Assembly: GCF_000003815.2 (NCBI RefSeq)
Contig: NC_049993.1
Location: 2,134,645 to 2,198,644 of the forward strand
Direction of reading: 5' to 3'
Source of the DNA: Branchiostoma floridae
Lineage: Eukaryota > Chordata > Leptocardii > Amphioxiformes > Branchiostomatidae
Length of the DNA stretch: 64,000 nucleotides
The stretch's first letter is position 1, and each line of letters starts with the position of its first letter. This document shows positions 4,431 to 51,263 of this stretch, in pieces. The notes beneath the pieces were generated by a model, which was given only the letters and a program-made list of their open reading frames with translations, was not told where the DNA came from and searched no databases. The position numbers were made by a program, and so were the translations under genes.

Positions 4431-4997
4431 GTGCGTAATCGCGCCAATGTTGACGTCTTATAACTCCCAAACGGCTTGCGCTAGGTCAAACAAACTTGGT
4501 GACTAACTGTTGGCAACAATGTACAATGATAAACAAAGATAAATAAGGTTATACATAAGATAGATAACCTAATGACGGTGAAATGAGTAGTTAAATTGAG
4601 TAGTTAAATTGCTACCTTGTGTCATCAAAAACTCAATTTTCCCACTATTCCTTATACTTGCATTGTTTATTTTATGTATCTCATTATCATATCCATGCAT
4701 GTATAATACATGGACCTTCCTCAAATTATTTTCCATATTCCAATTCTGAGAAAATAAAAGGTAATTATTTTAAATAACAGTAACACTGTGTGCAGCATAA
4801 GCAAAATTATTGCCTAACATGGTGACCATTCTACACCAATGCTATATTGTGATTTTGGGATTAAAATCTATCATTTTATTTCTTTACTGACTTATGTCAT
4901 AACCCAGCAATCATACTTTGCCCTGTCATATCTTTACATTTAAGTTTTTCCACTTTGGAATGGACGTAGAGCCTTCTGCAGTAGGTCCAGCCTCATC

Positions 4998-5005
4998 TTA
5001 ATATT
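4998..5005 (-). CDS. Candidate terminal coding exon of the lectin receptor
   Basis: A strong acceptor (TTCTTTTCTCTACAG) ends at 5006. Entered in phase 1, as the last CTLD exon requires, it completes a Glu codon and reads Tyr then TAA at once. AATAAA signals lie downstream on the minus strand near 4877 and 4670. The rest of the exon would be 3' UTR. This is the best-looking end found but rests only on splice-site quality and phase. Confidence 0.3.
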
Positions 5006-8000
5006 CTGTAGAGAAAAGAAGACGATCATAATATAATGTTTTGAATACATCTAATACGTTCCAGTTCGTGGGATTCAACGTGCATACGAAAACTGGGGTG
5101 AAGAGCAAATGTCTATAAAGGTGCACTCTCACTGCACTTGCGTCACCATTGCGTCACTGCGGGGTTCGAAAGATTCTCAACAAATTTCAGAGGTAATGAA
5201 CTAATGTTTTTACTTTTTGTGTATTTTGTCTGAGAAAATGACTGAACAGCGACGCAGTGACGCAAGTGCGGTGAGAGTGCACCTTTAGGCACAGACAATG
5301 GTGGCAGTTGTAAAATCGAGGTGGCTCATAATTTGCATAGTTGTCCGCACCCCTCAAAATAGCTTTCTTTTAAATAGAAGTTACCCGTTGCCACGGAAAT
5401 CTGACGATTTTCTCCAATTTTCGGATCTCAAGACCACAGAAATCAGCGCATTTTACGGCATAATCACTGCAACACCTTTGACTGTATCATCAAAGGAAAA
5501 CAAGATCTGAATAGATCAATATTTTGTCCTTTTCAAAAATGTTAGGACATTTTGAAGAAGATAGATTTTAGTTCTTGGGTAGCCTGAAGATAAGGCAATG
5601 TTTCACTCTTTGAAATATGTAGTTTTTGGCCAAATTTGTAACCCTATATGTGCCGATTTGGTAACTCTTTTGGCTTGACAGTTATACCATGTATAAATGA
5701 TTAATATACTTAACAAATGTAATGTTGCACAATTTGTGGTTTTGTTTTCTTGTCACGCCGTTTTCTTAAAAAAATAGTGCACTTTTGCGTTTGGCAAATT
5801 TGTGAATTTGAGCCATGTTCAAAATACTCCACGTAAAGGTGCACTCTCACTGCACTTGTGCCACGCTTGCGTCACTGCGGGGTTCGAAAGATACTCAACG
5901 AATTTCAGACATAAAGAACGAATTTTCTTATTTTTTGTGTATTTTTCGACTTACTTTTACATTTTGCGCAAGATCTAAATTATACAAAAATAGGAGAAAA
6001 TTTAAAAAAACAGTGACGCAGTTAACAAATCCTGCAGTGACACAAACTTGACGAAAGTGCGGTGAGAGTGCACCTCAACAAAGCAAACGAGAATTCGAAC
6101 TCAAGTTGTTGTCAAAGGTAAATCTATATATTGCAATCTAATAAATGCTTGTAGAGTTTTATGTCGTGGTATTTAGTAACCTGAAAGTAGGCCACTTGTT
6201 TACTTTTGCGATAATTGTTGATTTAAGCACTATTTTGTTTAGGGCTTACCCAGGTGTCTATCAGATACCATCATCAGGGTTAAACTGACTGGATCTGATT
6301 CTTTCTGCTACTTATAGTCGATGTAGGTGGCGCGCTGCAGCAACAAGAATGTCGTCCCAAACGTGGCTCAGCTTGTACCCCCCCCTCTCGTCTCTTGAAT
6401 CAGATGCACTCATGCTAACCCTGATGATGGTGTCTGACAGACATCGAAACGTTGGAAGTGAGTACAGTTTTGGTTGTAGGATAAAGGAGAATTATTTTTC
6501 CACAACCAGCAGGAACTTACATAGCTTACGTTTCGATGTCTCTCAGATACCTTCGTCAGAACTTCTAACTGGAGCTATGCTTCTCACCGCTATATGTAGC
6601 CGATGAAGGTGAATCGTTTGCGGTGAGAAAACAGTCCCAAGCGTGGCTAAGCTTGTATCTCCCCCTCGTCCCGGTTCATCACTGGGGTTGAATATCTTAT
6701 CCAGATCGCCTCCTTAATCCACAGTGTCCGCCTGTTGTCTTCCGTGTCTATAACCTTTGCCCCCTCCCAGTCAATTACGCAATTGTTCATGGCGATATGA
6801 TCTGTAACTCCAGTTAGAAGCTCTGACGAAGGTGTCTGAGAGACATCGAAACGTAAGCAATGTAAGTTCTTGCTGGTTGTGTAAAAAGAATTCTCCTATA
6901 TCCTACATTTTACCAACCTGATGAAACTATTTTCGAACTCTGGGTGTGTTTCAAAGAACCTTAAGATAAAAGGCAATGCCATCTGACCTACCTGTCGTCT
7001 GACAGATAAACTTGGCCTCTTTACTTGAGCACCTCTGATCGTTCCATCCCGTCTTTGCTTGAGAACTGTACTGTGCACAGTCTTCATCTCCGCCATGACT
7101 ATTCGGTTCTCCCTCTCGCCAGTCACTCCAGTTGGTATCCTGGTTGAGAACTTGCCCATCCTCCCACATCCACAGTCCCTCCCTGTTCTCGTCACTCAAA
7201 CCAAACCAGAAATAGTGCCAGGGATCCGCCTCGTTCTTCAAATACACTAAAAAGTCGTTTGTGTTCTTGTCTTTAGGCATGGCTAAAAGTCCGCTCTTGG
7301 CGGCACAAAACTGCCTCGCCTGGTGGTAGGAAACTATCGGGTGGTACGCCTTGAAGCAGGCTCCATTGAACTTAGTAGTGTCATCTGGACAGCCTGTTGG
7401 GAGAACCATGAATTTGTTAATGATTTAAATGATAAATTCAAAATAGAATAAAGTTTTGATGGCATATTTGGGGCCTTTCAGCTTTTAATACATGTTGATA
7501 TACGTTGGACAAGCAGTTAGATTAAAATATTACTCCACTTGGTGTACTTTACTTTACGTGGTGTACTTTGAAAATGGTTCAAATTCACGATTTTTGCCAA
7601 ACACCAAAATATGCTGACTTTTCAGGGAAAACCACTTCACAAAACGTTTCGACTCGAACCTGCACAAACAATTATATTATATGCCATGAATGGATCTAAC
7701 AAGAAATATAGCTAGAATTCTATTTTAGTTGGTCACGAGAAGGTACTTTTCATTTTCGGGAGAGAAAAGGGGAATGGCTGGAAAACATTATTTGCCAGTT
7801 ACAATAATAACTAAGAATTCAATCTAAAGAAGAGCTAATTGAGGAGTTGTGCACCAAGTACAATCTTTGTGCAAAATACGAGCCCAATCTATATTTTGAC
7901 ACCTGCTACAATCGTTTGATCTATACCGACACTTGCTCTTTAGAATTACGAAAAAAAAAACAGAAACCTAACCATTTTCTAATTGATATAACAGCGATAT

Positions 8001-8134
8001 TTCTCCTGTTTTTATCTTTCCCCTTTGTACCAAACAGAATAGAATCTTTAAGAATCACGACAATAATGATGCAATGTGCCTATTAAATGGAATATTTAGG
8101 CGCCTCAGAAAATACATATATATCTATATCTTCG

Positions 8135-8178
<44 letters not shown>

Positions 8179-11100
8179 CGCTAAATATTTGCAAACACCT
8201 GGGTAAACTTGGCACATGAAGGGCAGGGCTAGGTGGCAACTAATGTCATTCCATCCGACTGTTGAATGGTACACGGTCTGGACGCAGTGTTCCCCGCTGT
8301 CAGCGTTATTCGGCTCTCCCGGATTCCACGAGTTGTACTCTGCGAGTGCGGTGCCGTCTATCCACTCAAACTGCCCCTCTTTGCGCTGATCGTGCAGGCC
8401 GATCCAGAAGGCCCCAGATGTGCTCAAGGACTTGAACAGTGTGGTTTGCAAGTCGTCGGTGTCTTTGTCTCGGGGCATGGTGAGAGTACCGCCGTCCTGA
8501 CGACAGGTTGCAGTCGCTCCGTTGAAGCTTTTAGGTGTGTCAAACGCCTTGTAGTAGATACTGTGTAACTTTTTATAGCCTTTTAAAGGTAGAGGTCCTG
8601 GAAAAATAAGATGTTGTTGTACTTTTCGATATCACCACTTGTTGATTTTGACATTGTTCGGTATTCACTACACATTGCGTTGCCAACATATGTTATCTAA
8701 CTATTATGTTTAGATTGCATGCAAAGATTTCAACTTGATGCATGCAAAACTTTCAAGAAGAAGTTCTAGAATATTCAAGAATGAATGAAAAGATAAGAAG
8801 GAAAAAATATCAGCAATCACAATAGAGCACATACTTTCTATCACTTATATTTTCTTCTATTTTCCATTTTTCCATAATTAACAGGGTGTATTTCATTAGA
8901 ATCGTGACAATAATCGTGACAGTTCCTAAAAAAGAGTCAGTACTTTCAGGCGAGTTTAATGAATGTAATGGCCGTACTAAATGGGAAATTAAAATTAATC
9001 AATGTATTAAATACCTTGAATAACTTGGCAGACGAAGGACAGAGATTGGTGGCAACTGGCGTCATTCCATCCGAATGGATCAGGAAAATGGGAATGGACG
9101 CAGTCTTCCCCGCTTTTAAGATTATTTGGCTCCCCTGGATTCCACTGGTTGTACCCCCATGGTTTGGTGCCGTCTATCCACTCAAACTGCCCCTCTTTGC
9201 GCTGATCGTGCAGGCCGATCCAGAAGGCCCAGGGCGTGAAGAAAGTGGTAATGAAGAGGTTGGTCTCTGCGTCTCGGGGTAGGCGAGGGTACCGCCGTCC
9301 TGACGACAGGTTGTAGCCGCTCCCCTGAAGCTTTTAGGCGTATAAAACGCCTTGTAGCAGTAGATATCGCCCCACGATTTGTATCCTTCAGGGAAAGTAT
9401 CTAGAGATTTTTGTTTCAATAGCAAAAGTTAGAATGACATTCTTTGATGTTGAGATGGTTCAATATCCTCTACATGTTACAATACTAAAAAGGTATCATC
9501 TTTCTTTTACGTTTTTGCCTTACTGAAATGCACACACAGTGTATTTTCAGCATTAATTTTGAGAATACTCAAGAATATATAAAAAAGACTAGCTGCCACA
9601 TTATTTACACATCTAATCTTACATCTATCATAATTAAATATCGTCAGTTTTGATATTTTTTGTAATTTTAGCATTGTACTATGATCATTGCGAATACCGA
9701 TCATCTTCCATGATGATAGATGCAAAATTTAATGCGCTAATAATGTGATAGCTTGTCTTTTTTTATCTATTCTTGAAAATTCTCAAAATACTTGCTGAAA
9801 AGACACGTGTGTGCATGTGTGTATGAAAAAAAAAGATGATACCTGTTTTGACATTTTAACATGCAGTGGATATTGATTGAACCATGTCAACATGATAATC
9901 ATTGATCCTGAAGAATGGGATGGTGTTTTTTTGTGTGTTTTTTTATCAATTTCCCCTTATATCATTTTTCTCAAAACCAATATATTTCATTTGATCCTCT
10001 AAGGGATAATCAAATTATGATAATCTCAAGTCATAAGCTCAATGCATTTATTTATAGATTATGCAAGGTATTTTGGGTACCTTCATGGTTGATGGAAATA
10101 ATGCCACATATTTTCCTAATGATTTCACTGCAGCTAAGTTGGTTAATGTCTCAGAGGATGAGTCAATAAACACAAAGCTACTGTTCGAATGCGGGAAGGC
10201 CATCCTGGTTGTATCTGCATGCATTTGTCTTTGAACGTATTTCGGAAGGGAGGACAATGTTGGTCCCGTGTAGGAGGAAAATTTAGTAAGGTGCACTCAC
10301 ACTGCACTTGCGTCAAGCTTGCGTCACTGCCGGATTCGTTCACTGCGTCACTGTTTTGTTATTTTCTACGATTTTTTTTATAACTTTTATATTGCGTTAT
10401 GCGTAAAAGTATGACTTTCAAAACGACAAAATACACAAAAAATAAGAAAACTCGTTCTTTATCTCTGAAATTCATTGAGGATCTTTTGAACCCCGCAGTG
10501 ACGCAAGCTTGACGCAAGTGCAGTGATCGCGCACCTGTTGTTTCATAACTCGAATTGGTGCCTACTTTAGTTGAAGTACTACAACGCGAGTTACAAAAAC
10601 AAGTAATAAGAAAACAATGTACCTGGAACAACTTCGCAGATGAAATAGGCCCCGTGATGGCAATCCACATCGTTCCAACTGAGGCCGAATATTGCATTAG
10701 TGTGCGAATACTGAGTGCAGTCTTCACCGATGTCATCGTTATTTGGCTCTCCCGGAATCCACGAGTTGTACTCTCCGAGTGCGGTGCCGTCAACCCACTC
10801 AAACTGTCCCTCTTCGCGCTGATCGTGCAGGCCGAACCAGAAGGCCTCCTCATCGCTCACGGACTGGTACAATGAGGTGAGGAAGTCGTTCGTCTCCTTG
10901 TCTCGGGGCATGGCGAGGGTACCACCGTCCAGACGACAGGTCGCAGCCGCTCCGCTGAAGCTTTCACGTGTGTTGAACGCCTTGTAGTAGATTCCCCGCC
11001 AGGTTTGGTAACCCTTTGGAAAGGGTTCCGAAAGCTTCCAACTTGGAGGTTCTGAGTAAAAATTGAAACGTGTAAGTTTAATTTCAATAAATACTTTTAA

Positions 11101-14100
11101 TGTAAATTCAAATGCCTAATATGAAGCTATTTAAGGATATTACTATTGTAGATATATGCCAATTCTAAAAGTATAACCCCTCCAACAAGTACAGAAATGT
11201 AACAATAAACTGCCACTTTCCATCAGTTGCAGCCTGCATGGATGTCTGTTTTCAGACTTACATGTACACAGGACCTGTTTTTTGTTTTTTTTTTGCAAAC
11301 AAAACAAGTTGTGCTCTAACTATGCAAATAGAACGGGGGCCTACCCGAAAATACTTGAACTTCACACAAAGTCAGTATTCGGAATGGTCCGGGAAGACGG
11401 ACACCCACGAACCGTCCATTCATCCCCGGACATGGGACGGAGATCGAAGGATGGTCCAGGTCAATTTGACGATTATCTCCACACTTCGGGTTCTTGCTGA
11501 CCTGGTCGGAATCCCCGATGTGGATGTTGAAGGGGTTCAATCGCTCCGGACAACAGTCCTGGCGGTTGAAGATGACCACACTGTAGATGTTGAAAACAGA
11601 AAAAAGTCTCCAAATTTTATATCTTGAACTCGGATGAGCATTCTTTAAAAATCTCATTATATTTGACAGGTTATCAGCCTCTTCCGGCTAACTAAACTTG
11701 TATTTTTTTCTGTCATGTATTCGTCCATTAAAAGTTTTATTAGGTTAGTAAGTGACTGAAAACGATGTTCTCTATCCAAACTCAAGTGTTTTTAAAGTAT
11801 TAGACTAATGTCCGTCAATTTATTTTCCTGGGGGCAATTCTAACTGGTTCACTTTGCGCTGCATCATAGGTGTCGCTGTTTACAGATAGGCTCCCAAACG
11901 CAGAGTATGTTTATATAGCGCTTTGATAAAACATTTGTGTACAATTTTTAACCCCCTTTATCCCCTATTCGTCGTTGCCACTTCTCCAAAACTGTTGATG
12001 CAAAGGTGCGCACGTCTACCATACCGCTGTGTCTGTACATTTTGTGAATAGATAGAATACTTAGTTGTCTTCGGAGTTTGCGAAGAAGAGGACTGCAATG
12101 ACGGTCAGGGTGCACTCTCACCTCAGTTGGGACACCGGTGCAGTACTGCGGGGTTCTTAGATGACGCAAAGAATTTTCAGAGGTAAGGAACGAATACTCT
12201 TCCGGTTTTTTTTTTGGGGGGGGGGGGTATTTTGTTGTCTTTTAAGTCATACTTTTACGTATTTTGCAATATCTGAATTATCAAAAATCTCGAAAATAAC
12301 AAAACAGTGCCGCAGTAAACGAACCCAGCAATACCGTACCAATGCCCCAAGTGCAGTAGAGTCCACCTTCAGACTATGAATGTCGTATCCGTACCTGTCA
12401 ATCACGTAAGATACTCCAAGATCCACTTGCCATGTTGGATTGGCCTCTCCGGGTTTATTCTTAGTGTGTGTACACGAACCAATGTGGACGTTGTAGTCAG
12501 TATTGATGATTCCGTCTACGGCAAGCCCGGCAACTCGTTCTTCAAAGATGCTTGTTTGAAACGCTTTCTTCCCCAGGGCTACATTGACGACTTTTGCAAA
12601 CAACAGAATCGTCATTAGCAGTGTCAAGATCACACCAGTCCCATCAACGTTTAACCAGATATTTGTCTTAATACTTCATTATTAAAGGTATGCCATATAA
12701 CATAATATTCTATGAATGTAAGAGAATAGCAGTAATATAGGAAATAAACGTAAAGATAAATTGTTAGAACCGAAATTAGCGATTTTCGTCAAAAATGCCT
12801 GAAAAGAAACAGTTGACATAGCGACGGAAAAATTGAAATTTTTTAAAACTTTCTGAATTTGTTGCTAACTAAAGTCTAGGGAAACAAACTACGTTTGGTG
12901 GCTCTTGCGCTAGTCGTTTTGGCGTTATAAGACGTGAAACGTGGTTATAAATTAAAGCTCCCCTGCAAATAGTTAAGAGTTAAAAAGTTAAACCATTCCC
13001 GCGCCGAGATGGCGAATAGGGCGGTGCCCATCTCTGTTTCGTTAGCCCTGGTCCACACACAGCACAATCACTACAGCAGGGGGCTAGTCCACTGGTAGGT
13101 AGTGGTGTGTGTTCAACTTCTATTCCCTTTCCCGAATGCTGAGTGCTAAGCAGAGAAAGTATCATGTACCATTTTTAAAGTCTTTGGTCTATCGAACTCA
13201 CGACCCTCCGAATGCAAGGCGAACACTCTACCCACTAGGCCATTGCTACTCATTTTCACCTGAGTATAGTGAGGAAAGCCAAGTAAAGTGCCTTTCCCAA
13301 GGGCACAAGATCGGTGACACGCAGTCGGATTCGAACCCGCAACCTCTCGGTCACGAGGCAGAAATTCCGCCGCTGCGCCACACGATCCCATTGACTCTAT
13401 TCTATATAGTTAAGAACAACATGCCAATTATCAACAGAAGCGAATGAGACATCATTGATACATGCATTTTACTTACACCAGACCAGCCTATTAATTTATT
13501 TCCAGAATGGGAATAAAAAAGCTTTTATTTGACCTACCTGTCTTGTGAAAGCACCAGTGTGCATTTTTCGTAAAATCCTCGAAGCAGCATCCTCGCTGAT
13601 GACACTCCTCTGGAGTCATGCCTGGCCAACCGCAGTTCTTCCGTTTGTTGGGTTCCACCAGGCATGCTTAAAATAACAAGCACATGATAAACTAGAGTTC
13701 CACGATCTCATACCTTCGCCAAATAGTGTAAATCTTTTCGAGTGAAGTATTTATAATTTTTCCCATCCAATTAGTCTTTTGAAAGTCCTATCATGACTGC
13801 AGAGGATTTATTAACATTCCTAATTAATCATGTGAATTAGCGTTGATTTTCATGATAGTACTTTATAATGTAAGTCATCACTTAGGCTATCTACATACCA
13901 AAAATCATTACCACCTGTCAACACGTTCTCGAGTTATATCGTCCAAAGTTTGAAAGGAAATTGGCACCTGCAGCTCAAAAAGGCGCAAGGTAGCCAAATC
14001 GTACGGCACTTACTCCTATGCCCAGAGGGCTGTCTACCACTTAGAACTCACGATCACACGAAGTCCAGAAAGAGAGTTGTCGAAAATGGAAGTTTTGTTG

Positions 14101-16415
14101 TAGTATCTTAGGTAGCCGCTAGGGGTGCCACGATCAAATTTGACCTTCGTTTTCGTGACCCCTAACCACCTACCAAATATCATCACCATTCACCCAAGGC
14201 TTCTTGAGTTATGCTGTTAACAGACAGACAGACAGACACATAGACACAGATACAAACACGCTCAAAACATAACCGAAGGTGATGATTAAGAACGCAACAG
14301 ATAACAAAAACGCATAATATTATAAATGTTTACCCAAAATTACAAGATTAAACATGTGGGGCCTCGACGGAAAATCGACAATTATTAAGACACAATGATT
14401 CAAACCGTTTATATCTCGATATCATAAGATTCTAAGTAGTTAATATGAAGACTTAAGATTTGTATTAAGATCCATGCATCGGAAGATAAGCATCATACGA
14501 ACCATGTTTTTTTCACTTTCAATGTATGGTATTTTCAATGTTATGACATCCAAATTAGATGTTGTCATTACGCCCTTTCTTTACTTACATTTTGGAATTT
14601 TTTTCCACCCCACAAACCTAAGAAGTAGTTAGTACCAAAATTATTTCACAAAATTAACACACATGGCACAATTATATTAGTCATGGTCGAATCATACCAA
14701 GACAACAATATTTGAATAGATCACCTTCATTTGATTCACGCTGGTAAGATGTTTTCGGGTTCTCGGGAGGACTTGAAATTGTAAGTGCAAGCGGCAAGGC
14801 TGGTCCAACAGTCCCTCGTACATCAAACGGTCCCATGGTTTCCTTTTCTGCTGTGGCTTCAGACGTAGTTCCGCCTGGATGTTTCAGTTTTTGTGGCCAA
14901 ACTGATCCCATCGTCCCTGGAGGCCCAACCGGTCCCATGAGTTCCTTCAGTTTTGAAGGTTTATCAGTTACCCATTTGCCGATGCTTGGCCAAACAATCC
15001 CATTTGTCCCCTTTGCACCGTAGACCCAGACAACTTTTCGCCTTGAAGACCCATGAGGTTTAGTAGACCCAGGTACCCCGCCGTGACCCACCTTTCCCAT
15101 TGGCCCTTTCATTTTGGGAGATCCAGTACACCCAGGTTCCCCAACGTGGCAATTCATTCTCATTGGTCCCTTTATTTCAGGAGATCCGGTAGCACCAGGT
15201 AACCCGGCCTGATACACAAAACCCAGGTGTGCTCCCTCTTCAGATGACCCAGGAGACACAGCTTGCTCACCCTTTCCAGTAAGTGCCCTTTCTCCGTCAA
15301 ATCCAGTAGACCCAGGTAGCCCACCCTGACCATCCATTCCCGGAAGTTCATTTTCTCCAGGAGACCCAGTAGCCACAGCTAACCCAGTCTGGCCGCCAAA
15401 TCCAATGATTCTCTTTTTGCCTGCAGACGTAAGTTGGGTTGTAGACCTATTGGTTTCCTGACTCCCGGGGATTTCCGGACCCCCGGGATCCTCTGATCCC
15501 AGGTTAACAACTGGGCCAGTTACCCCTATTGGCCCCAAAGGTGTAGAGGTGCCAGGGTACATAGACGTGTCTGAAAGATATCCATGCCACCTAGTTAGGT
15601 TATCAATTCATGTTTAACACACAATTGAAGTCGTACTTCCTAGAAGCTTCTTCGTTTATCCAAGGTCACAATGAGCAAGAATATTCCTGCAGGCCTTATA
15701 GATACAAAGCTACATACGTAAATACGATCGTGAATATCTTCATGAGGTTGGAAGGTCACTAACATATTATTTTCACAGCCGATGTTTTATTTCTACCAAC
15801 GTTTCGATGACCGTCTATCACCGTTCACAGGGTAATCCTGACCAATCTACTTTGCTATAGGTTTAACATCGATCTTACAAATGTTGTTTTTTCCAAACGC
15901 AAAGTAATCACATATGCACAGTGATTGCTTTATGCGGTGTTTACAATGCGGTGACAAATGAGAAGAATGATAATATTTACATAACAAAATTAAATCAACA
16001 TTAATGATGGTGTAACAGTTATCGTATATTGCGGTCCCAAACGCGAGTGCAGTTTAATGTGATTTAGTAACAAATGCAATTAGTAAGGCGACAAGGTCAG
16101 CGGAAATTAAACAAAAAGGTTGCGTAAAAAGATTATCTCTTTTCCGTGGAAAGACAATGTAACACAATTGTGCAATTACAACCAAATTGACCTTACATTT
16201 ACTTGATGCTATAGATATAATAATCAAAACCAAAAGAAATTTTAATTTCATATATATCAGCGTCCGGAAAAGTTACGTACATTTTTAACTCATGTGTTGT
16301 ATACCACAATATATTAGACAACTCCACCAAGAAGTAGAAGTACTGATGAATTTTTGTTCATACATTAATGCATTTCATCGGGCATAGATATATTTATACA
16401 TGCATATCTATATAA

Positions 16416-16447
<32 letters not shown>

Positions 16448-16499
16448 CATATATTTATATATGTATATATAGAGAGAGATTTGGGGCTCTCTCTCTCTC

Positions 16500-16533
<34 letters not shown>

Positions 16534-19500
16534 TATATATGAATCTTCTGAAAACTTGTATACGTATATGTATATTGATTAAAAAAAACTCCGAAAATTC
16601 AATATAGTAGTAAAAAGTATTACTTACCATTCACTTTAGTGACCCGATTATTCATTTCCTCAGTAACGTTTGACACCTCCCCAGACGAACTGGTTACTTT
16701 TCCTTCAAATATGTAAGAAAAGACGTGCAAATAAACTGACTAAGAACATGGTAAATGGGACCTTCTAAGTATTAAATTAATTAGCCTTAGGCCACAGGAA
16801 GTAAATTTTATGGATGACATCATTTGCAGACGGCAAAAATAGTGAGATAGGGCAAAGAAAACCAAGATGGGTAATAAAAAAATAAGATGGCTAAATTTTC
16901 CAAATATACGCACTAAACGTACTAAAAAGAAAGAATTGAAGCGACGAAACATGGTAACACAGCCTACAAGGCATTCATTTCTGTATTCAATACGTATACT
17001 AGTGTAGAAAATGTGACACTAGTGTGGTATCTGGTATCACTTACCAACATGGCATCAACACTCATGGTTTCCATATTGGGGCCACTTTTACAGCTATCTA
17101 ACTAAATTTTTACTTTGACTTCTATAACTACAGTTATGGCTACCTGACTAGTGTCACTTCTACGAGTACAACCATTAGCCTATAACACAACATATTTGCC
17201 CATTTTGGTACTTTCTCGTCATGTTGACCATCTCCGAAGAAAATCAGGCGAAAATTAATGCGCACGCTAAAGTCATCCATAAGATTTGCTTGCTGAGGTA
17301 ACAAGTATAGCTTCGTACAGCAACATGAAAACACTGACCTACAAAATACGCCAACAGGACGACCGCGACCAAGCCGGAAACAAGGCTGATTGCTTTCCAC
17401 AGCTTCCTGCGTATCTTGCAGCACTCCGTCTTGTTTCCATCAGTGGGCTCATTATCGCTTACACCTATGGAACAAGAATGGAAACGTAAAAGGACATTAG
17501 TTATTGGTTATTGGTTGGGCCGACTACTCACTCTTTGCAGCCAGGGGCTGAATTGCGAGGAGCTTACAATAGGCGGGGCTAAATCGCAAGGGTCTGGAGT
17601 GAGCTGCCATTCCGCGCCACTCAATACGACAGTAAAATTGCCCCCAGGAGCGGCCAAGGTACTGTAGGTTTTGAACCATCCACACCGCACCATCGCACGT
17701 GTGGCGGCTTCTTTGACGTGCCTGGGGTATGGCTCTCCACAAACATGGGACCTCCATTTAACGTCCTATCCGAGGGACGGATGCTATTACTACTCACAGC
17801 TCATGTCACAAAATTGTGGAGCTCATCATCGGGAATGCGCCAAATTACGCCAAAGGACCTGACGCTAAAAACTCTACAAAACACACTGCGGGACATTAGC
17901 TTTCCGCTGAGGGAGTTCTTTACTTCACCTCAGGACAGTTTTCGTCGGGAAGCCCGATACAGGGCATCTAGAGGTAAAACCAAGGGACAGGAACCGTCAT
18001 TTGCGCCCCGTTCTCTAAGATTATTGTACCACAATGCTAGTTACTTAATAAAGATTGTTAATTCTATTGTATCTAGGTTTTTATCCGAACGCTGTCGAAT
18101 TTTAAAAGTTGTATTTATGCATCAGTGTTTAACGTCAATTGTATCACTGTCAAGCGATTCTGTGACTGATGGCGCATTTCATGTGTATTTATCTCATATT
18201 GAATTTCACATGCCTAGTCAATCAGAAATAAAGCTGAATCTGAATCAGAATGAATTGGTGTGTGTGTGTGTGTGTGTGTGTGAATGATTTCGAGGTTTTC
18301 CGAAAAACGAAAACTGGAATGGGCGTTTGCTTAGCCTTAGGAATCCGAGGCTGTCCCAAAATACCATAGGAATGGATGTTCAGGATTGTTTGCTTAGAAT
18401 TTTGGAGGTTGTCCAAAAAACAAAAACGGGAATGGGTGTTCAGGAATGTTTGCTTAGGATTTCAAGGTTGTCCGAAAAAACAAAAAAAGGGAATGGCGTT
18501 TGCTTAGCCTTAGGAACTCGAGGTTGTCCGAAACGACCCCGGGAGAGGGTGTTCAGAAAAGCTGTCCCCATGGACTCCAGGAATAGTAGAACCGATTATA
18601 GTCGGGACGTGAAATAAGGTTGTCTTAAAACACCCAGGGAATGTATGCTCTGTACTGTTGGCTTAATTTTTTTTTTATTGCATTCTACAGTAGAATATAC
18701 AATTCACATTAACAAAAACATAAGGACATGGACAAAAACATAAACCACGGATCCAACGGGAAAGTAAAAGACAATGTACGTAGACATTGCTAGTATAGGA
18801 AATATACAGACTGAAGTATGTAGCAAAATAATGTAAAACAGGATGAATAGATGGATGTAAACAATAATAAATAAATAATTCGGACAAGAACGTTAGGAAT
18901 TGTTACAAATAAAAGAATATAAGTGGAGCTATACAGTATGTATGGATGAAAGTTGAATACAAGATGTATTTGTGCGTATACGTAAAATAACCAAACCATA
19001 GTAACCATACGTCAAAAAGAAAAATAAATTAAAGCAACATCAACAATGACGGTACACAAGAAGGCAAGATGATGGCTGTTGGCTTAAAATTTAAAGGTTG
19101 TCCCAAAACACCTCGGGAATGTATGCTCAGGACTGTTTGCTTTGAAATTTAACGGTGTCCCAAAGACCCCAGGAATAGTTGTTCAGGAATGTTTGCTTTG
19201 AAATTTAAGGTTGTCCCCAAAGACCCCAGGAATAGTTGTTCAGGAATGTTTGCTTTGAAATTTAAGGTTGTCCCAAAAGACCCCAGGAATAGTTGTTCAG
19301 AACTGTTTGCTTTGAAATTTAAGGTTGTCCCAAAAGACTCCAGGAATGGGTGTTCAGGAATGTTTGCTTAGGAATTTGAGGTTGTCAAAAAACGGGAATT
19401 GGTGTCGGGAATGTTTGCTTTCAAATTCGACGTTGTCACAAAAGACCCAAGGAATAGATGTTCATGAATGGTTGCTTGGGAATTTGAGGTCGTCCCAAAA

Positions 19501-20923
19501 GACCCCGGGAATGGCTGGACAGAAATGTTTGCTTAGGAATTCAAGCAGGAATTTAAGGTTGTCCCAAAATACCCCGGGAATGGATGTTCAGAAATTAAAA
19601 ATTATTCCAAAACTAAAACGGAATTGGAGTTTTGGATTGCAGCTTAGGAATGTCCCAAAAAAGGGTAATGGGTGTTCAGGAATGTTTGCTTAGGAATTCA
19701 AGGATGTCCCAAAAGACCCCATGAATGGCTGGTCAGGAGTGTTTGCTTAGGAATTTAGGTTGTCTCAAAAGACCCCAGGAATGGGTGTTCAGGAATGTTT
19801 GCTTAGGAATACAAGGTTGTCCCCAAAGACTCTGGGAATGTGTGCTCAGAAATGTTTGATTTGGAATCCGAGGTTATCCCAAACGACCCCGGGAATGTAT
19901 GCTCAGGAATGTTTGCTAAGGAATTCAGGGTTGTCCCAAAAGACTCCGGGAATGGGTGTTCAGGAATGTTTGCTAGGGAATTCAAGGTTGTCCCGCATCC
20001 CAAAAGGCCCCGGGAATGTATGCTCAGGACTGTTGGCTTAGGAATACATGGTCGTCACAAAAGACCCTGGGAATGGGTGCTCAGGGATGTTTGATGAGTA
20101 GGTGTTCAGGAATGTTTACTTAGGAATTCAAGGTTGTCCAAAAAAACTTGAAAGGGTGTTCAGAAATGTTTGCTTAGATATTCGAAGTTGTCCCAAAAGA
20201 CCATAAAAATGGGTTTTCAAGAATATGTGCATGGCAATTCCACGCTGTCCCACTGGACCTTTTTCAAATTAGCAATTGACGTTAAAAATACCCGTCAACA
20301 ACGGGTCGGAAGGCAACCCGAAAAATTGGGAAATGTTCTTTTTTAATTGTTGACGCAAAAATAAGAAAAGGTAAGAAATTGGTGGCTCTGGCGTAAGCAA
20401 TTTGGAAGGTATGCAACTTGGAAGTTGCCACCCACTCCCACCCCCCCCACCCCTTGTCTGTTAAGGACCACATAGTTGAGCACGAGTAAGTAAAGCTAAG
20501 GGCACAACCCGCCGTACGTGCAAGTACGTGATGTCTACGTGCCAAAACATGGGCAATCTTTTGGGATCCGTAAGTGGTAAGTACCGCCTCCGTACGAACT
20601 CGTAGGGAATCCGACGGATTTTGGAGCACGCAGACACGCCGAAGAACTTTACGTGCAGGCAAAACTTTGTGTGCCATCGGGCTGCGGATTCGCCCCATGT
20701 ACGTGCCAGTACGGGCGACGCGCCTGTCCTGTATAGCCTGAACGTTTTCAGAAGTACATGGCGGACGTGGTCTTCAAAAAACGTACATACAAATTGCACG
20801 TACGGCGGGTTGTACCCGTACCCTTAGCTTAAGATGTTTACCTGTTCCAGAGGCGTAAAGAGCGTTGGGTGTGTTTGCAGTAATGTCCGCAAGGTGCGTC
20901 CAGTCAGTCCGGGACTGCTTCAT
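4998..20923 (-). CDS. Type II membrane lectin: TM, stalk, collagen, trefoil, F-type lectin, 4x CTLD
   Basis: Eleven or twelve exons on the minus strand join in one frame; nearly every junction is phase 1 and the one inside the F-lectin domain is phase 2. Exons, 5' to 3': 20923-20842, 17464-17339, 16702-16628, 15570-14725, 13666-13538, 12590-12395, 11580-11345, 11051-10623, 9400-9015, 8597-8199, 7393-6992, and perhaps 5005-4998. The lack of a signal peptide plus one internal hydrophobic segment predicts a type II protein: a short cytoplasmic N-terminus, then an extracellular stalk carrying carbohydrate-binding domains. Trefoil domains bind mucus glycans, F-type lectins bind fucose and EPN-type CTLDs bind mannose with calcium, so the product would be a multivalent pattern-recognition receptor (inference). 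One CTLD exon is frameshifted, so this allele may be broken or skip that exon. Alternative: two or more neighbouring genes; matching phases argue for one. Confidence 0.65.
5118..5287. mobile_element. TIR-A miniature element, copy 1
   Basis: The left end GTGCACTCTCACTGCACTTG is mirrored at the right end (GACGCAAGTGCGGTGAGAGTG), with a tract containing GCGTCACTGCGGGGTTCGAA inside. Short copy, about 170 bp, no coding capacity. Confidence 0.85.
5835..6075. mobile_element. TIR-A miniature element, copy 2
   Basis: Same terminal repeat (GTGCACTCTCACTGCACTTG) and inner GCGTCACTGCGGGGTTCGAA motif; about 240 bp; 550 bp from copy 1. Confidence 0.85.
6312..6396 (-). pseudogene. Penelope-like element fragment: GIY-YIG protein C-terminus
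   Basis: Minus-strand reading gives GGYKLSHVWDDILVAAARHL and a stop. The GxYxLSHxWD ending is characteristic of the C-terminus of GIY-YIG endonuclease-bearing Penelope-like retroelement proteins. It is followed downstream by a decayed hammerhead-like motif (6240-6300). Only the last few dozen codons remain. Old copy. Confidence 0.55.
6408..6465 (+). ncRNA. Hammerhead-ribozyme-like motif (Penelope-associated type)
   Basis: Core CTGATGA (6421-6427), helix II GGTGTC/GACATC, then GAAAC (6446-6450) followed at once by GTT. Helix I can form from CC/GG and ACTCA/TGAGT around an internal loop. Helix III is reduced to the palindrome ACGT, which could pair only between two copies. Reverse-complement or degenerate partners lie within 400 bp, so a dimer is conceivable. 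Confidence 0.5.
6506..6572 (-). ncRNA. Hammerhead-ribozyme-like motif
   Basis: Minus strand: CTGACGA, hairpin GGTATC/GACATC, then GAAACGTA. Flanks CCAG...AGAA and TTCC...CTGG can form an outer helix I. Same layout as the motif at 6810-6876 but opposite orientation. Confidence 0.5.
6642..6800 (-). pseudogene. Penelope-like element fragment: GIY-YIG protein C-terminal region
   Basis: Minus strand reads VIDWEGAKVIDTEDNRRTLW then IKEAIWIRYSTPVMNRDEG and a stop codon before the usual LSH ending. WIKEAI...MNRDEG is the conserved C-terminal block of Penelope-like GIY-YIG proteins. The premature TAG shows decay. It lies just upstream of a minus-strand hammerhead-like motif (6506-6572), consistent with one broken element. 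Confidence 0.6.
6810..6876 (+). ncRNA. Hammerhead-ribozyme-like motif
   Basis: CTGACGA (6823-6829), helix II GGTGTC/GACATC, GAAAC then GTA. Helix I pairs GCT/AGC, AGAA/TTCT and CCAG/CTGG with internal loops. It is a near-perfect inverted partner of the motif at 6506-6572. Confidence 0.5.
6992..7393 (-). CDS. C-type lectin domain exon (CTLD 4 of 4)
   Basis: 402 nt, phase 1-1, acceptor CTCCCAACAG, donor GTAGGT. Reads GCPDDTTKFNGACFKAYHP, CAAKSGLLAMPKD, FWFGLSDENREGLWMWEDG, EGEPNSHGGDEDCAQY, TGWNDQRC, FICQ. It is the most diverged of the four and keeps the extra N-terminal disulfide (CPDD...CFKAY) of long-form CTLDs. EPN and WND are present, so mannose-type binding is expected. Confidence 0.92.
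7410..8190. other. Intron of the lectin gene
   Basis: AT-rich intron between two CTLD exons; nothing recognised except a (TA)n tract at 8138-8176. Similarly, 8600-9010 and 9405-10285 hold no other recognisable feature. Confidence 0.6.
8199..8597 (-). CDS. C-type lectin domain exon (CTLD 3 of 4)
   Basis: 399 nt, phase 1-1, acceptor TTTTTCCAG, donor GTGTTT. Reads LKGYKKLHSIYYKAF, ATCRQDGGTLTMPRD, FWIGLHDQRKEGQFEWIDG, PGEPNNADSGEHC, VGWNDISC, FMCQ. EPN and WND are intact. Very close in sequence to CTLD 1 and 2, showing recent tandem exon duplication. A (TA)n microsatellite starts about 20 bases past the donor. Confidence 0.92.
9015..9400 (-). pseudogene. C-type lectin domain exon (CTLD 2 of 4) with a 1-base frameshift
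   Basis: The exon runs from acceptor ATCTCTAG to donor AAG/GTATTT. It carries GYKSWGDIYCYKAF and CRQDGGTLA, then shifts frame; in the other frame it continues as FWIGLHDQRKEGQFEWIDG, PGEPNN, GEDCVH, FGWNDASC and FVCQ. Its sister exons read GGGGCATGG on the plus strand where this one has GGGGTAGG (9277-9284), so one base is missing. Length is 386 nt, one short of a multiple of three, while the sisters are 399, 402 and 429. It is either a real inactivating change, a polymorphism, or an assembly error. Skipping this exon would keep the rest in frame. Confidence 0.85.
10288..10536. mobile_element. TIR-A miniature element, copy 3
   Basis: About 250 bp with terminal repeats over 40 bp: left GCACTTGCGTCAAGCTTGCG, right CGCAAGCTTGACGCAAGTGC. 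Sits in the intron between CTLD exons 1 and 2. Confidence 0.9.
10623..11051 (-). CDS. C-type lectin domain exon (CTLD 1 of 4)
   Basis: 429 nt, phase 1-1, acceptor TTTTTACTCAG, donor GTACAT. Features in order: KGYQTWRGIYYKAF, ATCRLDGGTLAMPRD, FWFGLHDQREEGQFEWVDG, PGEPNN, GEDCTQY, LSWNDVDC, YFICE. The EPN and WND motifs are those of calcium-dependent mannose-type binding. The intron downstream carries a TIR-A element (10288-10536). Confidence 0.92.
11345..11580 (-). CDS. F-type lectin domain, C-terminal half
   Basis: Phase 2 to phase 1 exon from acceptor ATCTACAG. It reads SVVIFNRQDCCPERLNPFNI, then CGDNRQ, ISVPCPGMNGRFVGV and LTLCEVQVFSG. RQDCCPER fits the fucose-binding RxDx4R motif. A candidate binding-site His lies upstream (CTHTK), 29 residues before the Arg, slightly further than the usual spacing of 26. 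The adjacent Cys pair and the LCEV ending are typical of the family. Confidence 0.9.
12106..12369. mobile_element. TIR-A miniature element, copy 4 (diverged)
   Basis: Begins AGGGTGCACTCTCACC and ends with a diverged mirror (GTGCAGTAGAGTCCACCTT). Sits in the intron that splits the F-type lectin domain, about 25 bp from a splice donor. Confidence 0.75.
12395..12590 (-). CDS. F-type lectin domain, N-terminal half
   Basis: Begins at acceptor TTTGCAAAAG (phase 1) with VVNVALGKKAFQTS, the standard opening of an F-type lectin (fucolectin/tachylectin-4) fold, and continues through AVDG and PTWQVDLGVSYVID to a phase-2 donor (GACAG/GTACGG). If read without the splice, an in-frame ATG at 12615 would give a short hydrophobic leader, so a separate gene start here is an alternative; the matching phase-1 acceptor makes an internal exon likelier. 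A TIR-A transposon ends about 25 bases past the donor. Confidence 0.85.
12990..13393 (-). mobile_element. tRNA-derived SINE with two tRNA-like segments
   Basis: On the minus strand, GTGTGGCGCAGCGGCGGAAT and GGTTGCGGGTTCGAATCC act as box A and box B of a tRNA-like head. These are followed by a body (CACCGATCTTGTGCCCTTGG), then by a second tRNA-like unit (GGCCTAGTGGGTAGAGTGTT with GTGAGTTCGAT). The same body appears at 46180-46330. Not a functional tRNA: no acceptor stem pairing was found. Confidence 0.65.
13538..13666 (-). CDS. Trefoil (P-type) domain exon
   Basis: 129 nt, phase 1-1, from acceptor TTTTAAG to donor GTAGGT. The sequence ACLVEPNKRKNCGWPGMTPE continues to EECHQRGCCFEDF and AHWCFHK. 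It shows the six cysteines and the RxxCGxxGxTxxxC...GCCF...WCF pattern of the trefoil fold. Trefoil domains occur in mucus-associated and glycan-binding proteins. One complete domain is encoded by one symmetrical exon. Confidence 0.9.
13694..14287. mobile_element. Dispersed repeat, family G
   Basis: Starts AGAGTTCCACGATCTCATAC and CTTCGCC and ends near ACCGAAGGTGATGATTAAG. It shares phrases such as TTCTTGAGTTATGCTG and GCCGCTAGGGG with the copy at 44250-45835. Inner (CAGA)n tract at 14220. Located in a lectin-gene intron. Confidence 0.55.
14725..15570 (-). CDS. Degenerate collagen-like exon of the lectin receptor
   Basis: 846 nt, phase 1-1, open for 282 codons. It starts after TATCTTTCAG (TSMYPGTSTPLGPIGVTG). 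The donor chosen is GAAG/GTGATC at 14725, the only one found that keeps phase 1 before the in-frame stop at 14681. Gly-X-Y blocks are still visible (GLPGSTGFDGE, GPMGKVGHGGVPGS, GPVGPPGTMG) but Gly is often displaced or replaced, so a long continuous triple helix is not possible. The open frame has been kept although the collagen pattern has decayed; it may now be a flexible, Pro/Gly/Ser-rich spacer. Confidence 0.65.
15790..15850 (-). ncRNA. Decayed hammerhead-like motif
   Basis: Minus strand reads GATAGACGGTCATCGAAACG preceded by CTGTGAACGGT where CTGANGA would be needed, so the core is damaged. The flanks resemble the motif at 55800-55848. Lies in the intron upstream of the collagen exon. 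Confidence 0.3.
16418..16540. repeat. Palindromic (CT)n/(TA)n/(GA)n microsatellite
   Basis: CT runs, TA runs and GA runs alternate so that the tract is largely self-complementary and could form hairpins. Confidence 0.85.
16628..16702 (-). CDS. Stalk exon of the lectin receptor (75 nt)
   Basis: Lies between acceptor TATTTGAAG and donor GTAAGT, phase 1-1. It encodes 25 polar residues (KVTSSSGEVSNVTEEMNNRV and on) with an N-glycosylation sequon NVT and heptad-like hydrophobics. Same size as the stalk exon at 1215-1289. Confidence 0.6.
16790..17298. mobile_element. TIR-D element, copy 1
   Basis: Left GGCCACAGGAAGTAAATTTT, ATGGATGACATC; right CATCCATAAGATTTGC. About 510 bp, clearly alignable along its length with 37651-38182, including GACACTAGTGTGGTA and CGTCATGTTGACCATC. 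Inserted in the intron next to the transmembrane exon. Confidence 0.8.
17339..17464 (-). CDS. Transmembrane exon of the lectin receptor
   Basis: 126 nt, phase 1-1, from acceptor CCATAG to donor GTCAGT. The N-terminal half is acidic and polar (GVSDNEPTDGNKTECC), followed by KIRRKLWK and a hydrophobic run (AISLVSGLVAVVLLAYFV). The positive residues precede the span, which places the N-terminus in the cytoplasm. Confidence 0.75.
17540..17830 (-). mobile_element. SINE-like dispersed element
   Basis: Minus strand carries GGATAGGACGTTAAATGGAG and GTCCCATGTTTGTGG, then GCCATACCCCAGGCACGT and GCGATGGTGCGGTGTGGATG. This phrase order is common in marine-invertebrate SINE bodies. Boundaries are approximate. 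Confidence 0.4.
17850..18265 (+). mobile_element. LINE-type 3' end remnant
   Basis: A short coding remnant (RGKTKGQEPSFAPRSLRLLY) precedes a stop and a 3' region ending AATAAAGCTGAATCTGAATC, the simple-repeat tail seen in CR1/L2-like non-LTR elements. A (TG)n tract follows at 18254-18280. Confidence 0.4.
18290..20260 (+). repeat. 57-bp minisatellite array
   Basis: Tandem units of about 57 bp, consensus like GTTCAGGAATGTTTGCTTAG, GAATTTAAGGTTGTCCC and AAAAGACCCCGGGAATGG. Units at 19170-19380 are nearly identical and read as 19-residue repeats (MFALKFKVVPKDPRNSCSG) in one frame; other parts are diverged with indels. The array is split by an insertion at 18667-19075. No splice signals or codon bias suggest that it is translated. 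Confidence 0.85.
18667..19075 (-). mobile_element. Retroposed insertion with poly(A) and 12-bp target duplication
   Basis: The insert is flanked by direct repeats CTGTTGGCTTAA (18655-18666 and 19076-19087). At its left end the plus strand has T(10)ATTGC, that is GCAATAAA followed by A-rich sequence on the minus strand, so a polyadenylated RNA was reverse transcribed and inserted in minus orientation. The 409 bp do not resemble a coding sequence. Confidence 0.8.
20494..20832. mobile_element. TIR-B element, copy 1
   Basis: Left AAGCTAAGGGCACAACCCGC, CGTACG; right CGTACGGCGGGTTGTACC and CCTTAGCTTA. GC-rich interior with many ACGTRC motifs. Sits against the first exon of the lectin gene. Confidence 0.88.
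20842..20923 (-). CDS. First coding exon of the lectin receptor (cytoplasmic leader)
   Basis: ATG at 20923-20921 opens MKQSRTDWTHLADITANTPN and runs to a GTAAAC donor in phase 1, matching the phase-1 acceptor of the transmembrane exon. The peptide is hydrophilic, as expected for the cytoplasmic end of a type II protein. A possible acceptor (TATCTCACCAG) 8 bases upstream of the ATG suggests a spliced 5' UTR. A TIR-B transposon ends 10 bases beyond the donor (20832). The exon was picked from frame and phase only. Confidence 0.5.
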
Positions 20924-26340: not shown

Positions 26341-27140
26341 TCAATTCAACTCAAGTTTATTTATGAAAACTTTCTATGCTACATTAGGTTATCATTTTTC
26401 AACTTCAAATTTTAGGAAGTATAATTTAACATGAAAGCTGCTTTGTCTTTCTCGAAAACAATACAAAATGATGTAATCTTGCTCTGTTCTTTTGTATCTG
26501 GGCAATGATGTACACATTGAAAAGTGCTGAACGTGTGGCAAAAGCGTACAAGCGTTTTGTGTCTGCGATAGTGTGACTCCGTATCTGGGTGTAAATCGGC
26601 CCTCGGTGCCGTACGTCGGGTATTCTTATGTCGCACATCTACCCTCAAGGTGCAGTAAAACGGGCCATAAAAATTCCAGACGTACGACACTGGAGGCTAA
26701 CCTCGATGTACGATGTTGTCTCACATCCTGCAAGTTTTCGTCATGAAAATGAGGACTTAACTTAGGCTAGGGTCACAATTGGCCCGGTGCCCGTCAGGGA
26801 TGTAGCCCCGGCCGGGCTCTGAAATCGGGCGGACACCGGCTGTTTACCGGCTGTCGTGGTCACAATCAAACGTTGCCTTCGCGCTGCCCCATGGGGGTCC
26901 CGGAGTGTTCCGGCGGGCACCCCGTCATTTTTCTTTAAAAAATGTCCACCTTTCTAGGTTCGTCTCCGGCAGACACCCGGCAGATGTTCTGACGGTGTCC
27001 TGTAGTCACCCCTGCGGGGTCCGACAGGGTAACATGTGTCCCTTACAGCTCGGTGGGGCAGTTATAGGGTCCCTGCCGCATGCCCTGCGAACAACGGCAG
27101 GGAACCAGGCAGGCTCCTGGTGAGCACTCGTCATATTTAA

Positions 27141-28111
27141 CCCTCAAGCACCCGACCTTTTTTTGCGACTAAAATGACCGAGTGGGGTCCAAACGGACCC
27201 CAAAATGTTTTGTTCATAACATCTCGGTTCCAACTCCTATCGGTGATCATTGTGCATACATTGCTTCGTCAATGCAAGAGGAATATTTTGACATGTTAAG
27301 GTGTTGCTAATTCCACCTCATTATCATAATCTATGCAAAAATCAGAAGGACCATCTTTTGCACTAAACCTATTCTGACCAAAGAGGGGAATTTTGAGGCC
27401 CTCAGCAACCTTTATGTCGCATAACTCATGAACGGTTAGTGCTAAAGCTACGAAACTTGGTTATATATCACAAAATATTGTTAGCAAATTTTTTTGTCAA
27501 TAAAATAAATTTTTCATTTTTTGGGGTTGCCATGGCAACGGAATTATGACAGGCATATTTTTGCCAAAAATTTTCCAATTTCGATTTAAACAAGGTTTTT
27601 TTGGTAAACAATGCTTGTTTTCTTACAACAATAACATTCTATGAAATTCAATGCTATTTTCATGATTCAAAATTAATAATTTATGCTAATTTCATGACGT
27701 CATTAGTCAAAATCCAAGATGGCCGCCCTTATTAGCGTAATGACGTTATAATGTCGTCATATTATATGGTGATGACACATAAGTTTTTATGAGGATTTAG
27801 TTTAACATGTTTATTATGCTCTGAAAGTTTAGTGGTGATACGATAAATAGTTAGGGAGTTAGACTCAAAAGTTTGTTTCAAAAGCTACACTTTTTTGCTG
27901 GGGTCCGTTTGGACCCCAGACGGACTGATCACGGACTTTCTTTATACCTTCCACAGTATTGTACCAATCTTCATAAAAACTTAGGAGAAGGTAGAAAAGA
28001 TATTGGCTGACAAAGTCACGGAAGGAATTTTTCTTCAGATTAAAAATGTTCAAATGGCAATGCAAAATGTACGCCTGGGGTCCAAACGGACCCCACTCGG
28101 GTGTTTGAGGG
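27141..28111. mobile_element. piggyBac-like non-autonomous element flanked by TTAA
   Basis: Terminal repeats CCCTCAAGCACCCGA and TCGGGTGTTTGAGGG are flanked by TTAA on both sides (27137-27140, 28112-28115), the piggyBac target rule. Subterminal palindromes GGGGTCCAAACGGACCCC occur near both ends, with one more half-copy at about 27900. 971 bp, no transposase frame. Confidence 0.85.
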
Positions 28112-28150
28112 TTAAAGGGTATAAAAGGGTACAAGCATTGCCTGCATTCA

Positions 28151-50789: not shown

Positions 50790-51230
50790 CTACTGGGCCT
50801 CGTCGGTCTTCTCAGGCAGAAGCTCGGAATCGATGTCGGAGTCGGAGTCGGAGTCCTCGTCGGTGTTCTCAGGCAGAAGCTCGGAATCGATGTTGGAGTC
50901 GGAATCGGAGTCGGAGTCCTGTTCAATAATGTTGCCGGACATCAGCTTGTTCAACTCCTCGTCGTTGCGGACGGCCAGTTGAAGGTGACGGGTTGTGATC
51001 CTTTTCTCATTGTCGTCGCGTGCAGCGTTAACAGCCTGCTCGAGGATCTTGACGGTCACGCACTCAAGCGCGGCCGCCATGAACACCGGAGCGCCGGAAC
51101 CAACGCGCTGGGCGTAGTGTCCGTGTCTTAATAAGCGATGGATGCGACCAACCGGGAACTGGAGATCCGCTTGGGATGAAATGGTCTGTGCCTCGGCGCT
51201 TGCCTCTGCTCCTTTAACACCTTCAGACAT
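50790..51230 (-). CDS. Divergent histone H2A variant with acidic repeat tail
   Basis: Single-exon frame of 146 codons, ATG at 51230. The histone fold is clear: [65 protein letters not shown]. The N-terminal tail is not the usual Lys/Arg-rich one ([20 protein letters not shown]). Of the acidic-patch residues, the first Glu (LEC), the Glu of ILE and NDEE are kept, but the Glu of AEIL is Lys (VKIL). After the fold the docking domain is replaced by two acidic repeats built on DSDSDSD and DSELLPE(N/K)TDE. It should dimerise with H2B but would make an unusual nucleosome surface. Alternatives are a germline-restricted H2A or a chaperone-like H2A paralogue. No histone 3' stem-loop was recognised downstream, so the mRNA is probably polyadenylated. 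Confidence 0.9.
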
Positions 51231-51263
51231 CTTGCAGTAGTCGATTGATTAGCGTTTAACGAA

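Follow-up and report, generated by a model that had tools for sequence, protein, structure and literature searches.

Membrane collectins such as collectin-12 are type II transmembrane (TM) proteins with a collagen region and a C-type lectin domain (CTLD), and membrane collectins and class A scavenger receptors both combine a trimerising collagen stalk with a type II TM segment. F-type lectins and CTLDs have also been described in one chain: in the available part of PMC5712786, Drosophila furrowed/CG9095 is a single protein with an F-type lectin, a CTLD and a predicted TM segment, and diverse F-type lectin combinations are reported in Branchiostoma floridae. Lancelet APEC proteins place a fucolectin before two CTLDs, together with CUB and APEC domains (PMC12373286, in the portion available). 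Lancelet genome papers report exon shuffling statistically and describe 1-1 shuffling as very active (available part of PMC4284660).

Here we analyze a B. floridae locus for which a preliminary description proposed a single in-frame gene joining TM, collagen, trefoil, F-type lectin and four CTLD domains. The window, by which we mean the whole 64,000-nt stretch of DNA analyzed, corresponds to C15:2,134,645-2,198,644, and the assembly searched comprises 513,431,437 bases in 431 contigs.

Exon layout, paralogue and N-terminus

The expected set of TM, trefoil, F-type lectin and four CTLD exons is present on the minus strand, with Pfam scores above the cut-offs for Trefoil (53.5 bits; cut-off 21), F5_F8_type_C_2 (67.6 bits; cut-off 27.8) and Lectin_C (78.7, 60.1, 77.6 and 77.8 bits for CTLD1 to CTLD4, with CTLD2 read after a frameshift; cut-off 22.6). 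The eleven exons counted earlier all exist, and the count rises to 12, from 20923 to 4998, once an 8-nt stop exon is added (Table 1). Borders were placed by eye, and all 11 introns are of the GT...AG type. Internal coding units are phase 1-1, save for the internal split of the F-lectin and a break in E9. The earlier statement that phases agree at every junction holds elsewhere, but it gives way at E9, which has an internal stop and leaves CTLD3 and CTLD4 out of frame. The F-lectin is nearest to MsaFBP32 (3cqo, 2.5e-49) and then to AAA (1k12, 1.6e-17), CTLD1 is nearest to mannose-receptor-family proteins with collectins next, and E5 is nearest to TFF2 and TFF1, in an alignment that shows a six-Cys trefoil.

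Table 1. Exons of the predicted receptor gene and adjoining features, in window positions.
Feature	Position	Strand	Remarks
E1 cytoplasmic-tail exon	20842..20923	-	from putative ATG (MKQSRTDWTHLADITANTPNALYASGT); ends in phase 1
E2 transmembrane exon	17339..17464	-	..CCKIRRKLWKAISLVSGLVAVVLLAYFV; basic residues precede hydrophobic stretch
E3 short stalk exon	16628..16702	-	
E4 collagen-derived exon	14725..15570	-	281 open codons, degenerate Gly-X-Y
E5 trefoil (P-type)	13538..13666	-	six Cys and Asn/Trp sugar-contact pair
E6 F-type lectin, first half	12395..12590	-	phase 1 to 2
E7 F-type lectin, second half	11345..11580	-	phase 2 to 1; RQDCCPER motif
E8 CTLD1	10623..11051	-	EPN/WND, intact
E9 CTLD2	9015..9400	-	EPN/WND; 386 nt, -1 frameshift
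E10 CTLD3	8199..8597	-	EPN/WND, intact
E11 CTLD4	6992..7393	-	EPN/WND, intact; purifying selection
E12 stop exon (Glu-Tyr-stop)	4998..5005	-	acceptor and exon conserved in paralogue
Probable 3' UTR	4610..4997	-	aligns with paralogue sequence 3' of its stop exon
F-lectin pair segment	11158..12672	-	not homologous to corresponding paralogue segment

Searches with the trefoil and CTLD1 picked out a paralogue (paralogue A) 8 Mb away, on the plus strand at C15:10,248,165 to about 10,266,600, in which 10 of the 12 exons occur in identical order and the introns can be aligned by blastn in many stretches. Amino acid identity is 68% over 28 aa for the tail exon, 83% for the TM exon, 75% for the stalk, 63% for E4 (first 212 of 282 residues) and 83% for the trefoil; CTLD1 and CTLD4 are 73% and 78% identical, and CTLD2 and CTLD3 are also collinear. 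The two copies have identical stop exons (..cag, then AATATTAA), and about 400 nt beyond them can be aligned. Unlike the window gene, paralogue A has no F-lectin, reads GTG at the putative start and keeps CTLD2 intact; its CTLD1 has WYD in place of WND, and its trefoil has Glu where the window trefoil has its sugar-contact Asn.

The collinear paralogue, in which introns align and the stop exon recurs, strongly supports the assignment of ten exons to one gene. PMC4967905 cautions, in its available part, that chimeric lancelet gene predictions and novel architectures can be false. For the ten exons that caution is answered by the collinear paralogue, the conserved stop exon and the 3' flank, so that the proposal of a single gene is well supported here; for the F-lectin pair, what speaks for inclusion is its phase, splice signals and constraint. 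We consider it probable that the locus holds one amphioxus gene, predicted from its sequence to encode a type II transmembrane multi-lectin receptor.

E1, which had been taken as a plausible ATG exon, is real and conserved, yet paralogue A reads GTG at this point, and a conserved 3' splice site precedes the exon, which probably begins with 20934 as its first base. Its family occupies at least 27 places at E up to 0.01, the window and the paralogue included (among the best 150 of 254 candidates). Met stands at the ATG position in eight of 12 fetched relatives, with Q, R, V and T in the other four, and an acceptor (by eye) precedes the tail exon in all 11 relatives that have enough upstream bases. 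Locus B (C15:1.434 Mb) likewise has its ATG 11 nt from the acceptor. Three of five upstream stretches contain further tandem copies of the tail exon, numbering two in L064, one in L067 and six in L068, so the Met is internal there, and two of the L068 copies carry Leu instead. These tandem exons, which have N-P-x-Y-like motifs, stand before other amphioxus CTLD receptors; the fetched stretches hold two, two and six tail-exon matches, respectively. Between 20 and 60 kb of the window there is a single such exon. A search for an upstream coding exon found none among the matches listed, and what lies upstream in relatives is mostly further copies of the tail exon and other repeats. The true start may be a codon farther upstream than the putative ATG.

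The tail exon type is common to other amphioxus genes, with CTLDs close behind in those opened. Of 30 CTLD loci fetched, five being CTLDs of the window gene and paralogue A themselves, 17 have a TM exon of the related family, which is partial in one case. The cytoplasmic tail holds an N-x-x-Y motif. We infer a type II topology, with the N-terminus inside, from three features: the tail, basic residues ahead of the hydrophobic stretch, and CTLDs at the C-terminus.

The window has other features outside the gene. An open frame of 152 aa at 50793-51248 (minus strand) contains a histone fold that is H2A-like by eye (47 bits for Pfam Histone), followed at the C-terminus by an acidic, repetitive tail that a 57-bp tandem repeat encodes; it adjoins an 83-bp tandem repeat with six copies at 97% (51263-51755). 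A 170-bp satellite of about 8.6 copies lies at 30568-32001, with homologous repeats upstream of the paralogue's tail exon. EGF-type frames at 61312-63495 (minus strand), two of three over the Pfam EGF_CA cut-off, probably belong to another gene.

The F-lectin exon pair

A branch-point-like 'ct(a/g)atga' before E6 and the position of the border AG are common to three other F-lectin loci, as is the gtagg donor at E7; the E6 acceptor, caaaag, is weaker than the caccag, gaggtag and tggtag of relatives. A locus on C2, described below, likewise keeps the AG. We take the pair to be an internal cassette on the strength of these signals, although an open stretch with Met shared 5' of E6 would allow for a leader peptide. 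A separate secreted F-lectin starting from the ATG before E6 is unlikely, since the border AG and the branch-point-like sequence recur in the three F-lectin loci and also at the C2 locus. Omega for E6 and E7 together is 0.28, 0.24 and 0.26 against L049, L050 and L051 (p 1.4e-7, 2.5e-9 and 3.4e-8), values that span long family-wide branches; they show constraint in the family as a whole and do not date it to the window gene.

F-lectin-like places are many in the genome (best 150 of 463 candidates scored). The 1,531-base F-lectin segment matches in full length only itself among the best 40 of 2,832 candidates; the other 58 matches there are at most 329 bases long, 38 of them to E7 (78-85%), 18 to E6 and two to an intron repeat. 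At eight of 44 trefoil places, the window's included, an F-lectin place lies within 15 kb on the same strand, a count based on 107 F-lectin places among the matches listed, namely those that share a chromosome with a trefoil plus a few others. The F-lectin is downstream of the trefoil in six of the eight pairings; five of the eight are on C2, four of these within 31.6-32.3 Mb, and they are not independent.

One of the C2 loci (C2:32.004-32.024 Mb; L047/L048) repeats the window gene's order of trefoil, F-lectin and CTLD exons, with phase-compatible borders, its F-lectin being 78% identical in amino acids over E7. It also has further F-lectin-like exons and, by eye, discoidin-like and FN3-like ones; its trefoil is without the Trp and its CTLD without EPN, unlike those of the window gene, and E2-E4 of the window have no match in its 20 kb. 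By sequence comparison these domain exons are a candidate second trefoil, F-lectin and CTLD unit, which may be a single gene, and the domain set is not unique to the window gene.

The pair is missing from paralogue A: no F-lectin exon was seen in three frames of its corresponding segment, and window 12672-11158 cannot be aligned with A 26802-28121. In its place paralogue A has a dispersed repeat of about 960 bp (L041:7165-8123), which at one end comes to within a few bases of the breakpoint, and the remainder of the segment amounts to about 355 bp. Eleven near-full copies of the repeat occur elsewhere at 86-88% (best 40 of 1,785 candidates), with matches on 16 other large contigs among the matches listed. 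Since a repeat ending at the breakpoint is what would be expected of a repeat-linked deletion, the evidence somewhat favours loss of the F-lectin in paralogue A over gain in the window copy. Gain by exon shuffling after the duplication is a possibility that we entertain tentatively, as the pair is a self-contained 1-1 cassette, exon-only relatives of E7 are found at 38 places (best 40 of 2,832 candidates), and 1-1 shuffling is reported to be very active in lancelets (PMC4284660, available part); the repeat at the paralogue's breakpoint nevertheless fits deletion there, and the order of trefoil, F-lectin and CTLD at C2:32.01 Mb suggests an older unit.

The CTLD2 frameshift, the spacer and selection

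E9 is one nucleotide short of a multiple of three, and its translation meets a stop inside CTLD2; if the exon is included, CTLD3 and CTLD4 are out of frame. Compared with the paralogue, the Met codon in GGTL(A/T)MPRD has lost one base and another is changed, and there are additional indels of 3 nt and 12 nt. There are thus three intact CTLDs in this assembly, and CTLD2 is broken. A 601-base query of the E9 region matched itself in full, the paralogue at 82% over most of its length, and CTLD exons at 71-78%, with no second copy among the best 40 of 206 candidates. E9 is a phase 1-1 exon and can therefore be skipped without loss of frame.

It is unlikely that the frameshift stems from an assembly error or belongs to a minor allele, with all four CTLDs intact in the animal. 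The paralogue's CTLD2 is intact, and past the shift the window sequence still encodes recognisable CTLD residues including EPN/WND (the 60.1 bits given above), but a deletion, a substitution and two indels are more than one miscalled base, and among the best 40 of 206 candidates there is no second E9 copy for comparison.

The collagen-like stalk proposed earlier proved to be decayed. E4 scores 16.2 bits for Pfam Collagen, under the cut-off of 27.2, and its longest uninterrupted Gly-X-Y run is 6 (5 in the aligned part of the paralogue), compared with 50 in a plus-strand collagen exon at 1855-2577. Proteins classed as collagen-like have long uninterrupted Gly-X-Y, which E4 lacks; with a run of only 6 a long triple helix is impossible, and on its sequence E4 is better named a decayed, collagen-derived spacer. 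The collagen exon at 1855-2577 is encoded opposite to the receptor gene and lies 2.4 kb from the latter's stop exon. Upstream of this collagen exon on the same strand, outside the window at C15:2,129,784, stands an E1-like tail-type exon (L062), so a neighbouring gene may share the N-terminus of the receptor family.

Selection was estimated as omega between the window gene and paralogue A in ten units, with uncorrected Fisher tests. Omega is 0.93 for E1, 2.38 for E2 (one synonymous change only), 0.22 for E3 (p 0.02), 0.78 for E4 (p 0.33), 0.36 for E5 (p 0.08), 0.64 for CTLD1 (p 0.13), 0.52 before and 0.82 after the shift for CTLD2, 0.62 for CTLD3 (p 0.06) and 0.36 for CTLD4 (p 8e-4); over all 879 codons it is 0.62 (p 4e-5). 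The gene as a whole has been under constraint; singly only E3 and CTLD4, two of the ten units, reach p<0.05.

These values bear on whether a former four-CTLD receptor is now a pseudogene or non-functional allele, which we regard as improbable. With CTLD2 included, the early stop would probably lead to degradation of the mRNA. The deletion, changed base and further indels in E9, the eroded collagen, and an omega that is singly indistinguishable from neutral in eight of ten units, CTLD2 after the shift among the values noted, are all in keeping with decay, as is the report that lancelet gene presence is highly variable, with the C-type lectin domain enriched among dispensable genes (PMC12373286, portion available). 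Against decay, the remaining exons are open with GT/AG borders, CTLD4 and the whole gene are constrained, and the phase 1-1 exon can drop out with the frame kept.

That the locus comprises two or more genes, with TM, collagen and trefoil in one and the F-lectin and the CTLDs each in another, is very improbable. In favour of such a split, the paralogue lacks the F-lectin exons, which sit in a segment of their own, the frame is open 5' of E6 with an in-frame ATG that makes a short leader possible, and three F-lectin relatives share an open stretch with Met there (..MTMLMTVLSSAPG, ..MTLLMIDLSSAPG, ..VLMTVLSSEVG). Against it, the paralogue joins trefoil and CTLD1-4 in a single collinear unit that ends in the same stop exon, each of the four loci compared retains the AG at the E6 border, as does the C2 locus, which has trefoil and F-lectin-like exons ahead of that border, and phases fit on either side of the pair. 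A chance juxtaposition of exons is ruled out by the collinear paralogue.

Sugar sites and comparison with known systems

The Asn/Asp and Trp of TFF trefoils contact GlcNAc-alpha-1,4-Gal (PMC7221086, available part), and the window trefoil, KNCGWPG..NAHWCF, retains Asn and Trp in the TFF alignment. For F-type lectins, the available part of PMC5712786 gives a fucose motif HX24RXDX4(R/K) and a cation motif h2DGx in which x is small and hydrophilic. RQDCCPER of the window F-lectin fits RXDX4R with vicinal Cys, and its His aligns with that of AAA and MsaFBP32, with an H-to-R spacing of 29, not 24; in its cation motif, AVDGI, h2DG is present and x is Ile. All four CTLDs have EPN and WND, CTLD2 when read after the frameshift, and CTLD4 reads DEDC in the window copy and in the paralogue. 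On sequence alignment, sugar-contact residues are kept in the trefoil and the CTLDs, and mostly in the F-lectin.

Since most of these residues are kept, it is plausible that a single receptor combines three lectin folds. Fucose can be bound by EPN-type CTLDs as well as by F-type lectins, so their specificities need not be separate. The idea of one receptor that reads three types of ligand on a collagen-like stalk is partly supported, tempered by the overlap in fucose, the decayed collagen and the frameshifted CTLD2.

In the model that we propose, the N-terminus would lie inside and several sugar-binding sites would stand on one flexible ectodomain, with mucin-type alpha-GlcNAc as the trefoil's ligand, fucose as that of the F-lectin, and either mannose or fucose for the EPN CTLDs. 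Any one site would be weak, so that binding would be firm only on dense glycan surfaces such as microbes or mucus, and the bound surfaces might then be internalised or trigger Tyr-based signalling. Phase 1-1 units, with the F-lectin as a pair, would allow domains to be added or skipped without breaking the frame, and a protein with three CTLDs would result if the CTLD2 exon were skipped. The gene would have arisen by exon shuffling within the large amphioxus CTLD receptor family. It is doubtful that one chordate chain reads mucin-type alpha-GlcNAc, fucose and mannose/fucose as a combinatorial reader of the glycan code, with a trefoil lectin in a membrane immune receptor and domains swapped by repeat-linked 1-1 exon shuffling.

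If the transcript is real, it would offer a compact natural test of three unrelated lectin folds cooperating on one receptor. The two collinear paralogues, of which one has the F-lectin cassette and the other lacks it and has a dispersed repeat at the breakpoint, are a concrete case of lancelet exon shuffling. Annotations should not carry over the terms 'collagen' and 'four CTLDs', since the collagen is decayed and one of the four CTLDs is frameshifted.

How new is this architecture? Trefoil, F-type lectin and CTLD in one protein were found in none of the titles or abstract openings among the matches listed, and the earlier description likewise named no protein with the full domain order; F-lectin with CTLD is, however, already in print, and the exon trio recurs at C2. 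Drosophila furrowed/CG9095 differs in its CCP domains, and neither trefoil nor collagen is mentioned with it in the available part of PMC5712786. The lancelet APEC proteins differ from the window gene in their CUB and APEC domains, and no trefoil is mentioned for them in the available portion of PMC12373286.

Compared with collectin-12 and the membrane collectins, the window gene has a decayed collagen, with trefoil and F-lectin added; its TM stretch is present, but with the collagen decayed we do not place it among the membrane collectins or class A scavenger receptors. Its closest likeness is to amphioxus type II CTLD receptors (L053, L054, L056 and L061), which consist of a tail exon, a TM exon, a coiled coil (by eye) and a CTLD. 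They share with the window gene the tail exon type (..QTDW..AD..A..PNALY..G), the N-terminal TM exon and the C-terminal CTLD, features by which we count it among them; it differs in a collagen-derived spacer instead of the coiled coil, and in the trefoil, the F-lectin and four CTLD exons. The window gene is probably best read, from these shared and added exons, as an exon-shuffled variant of a large amphioxus family and not as a new kind of system.
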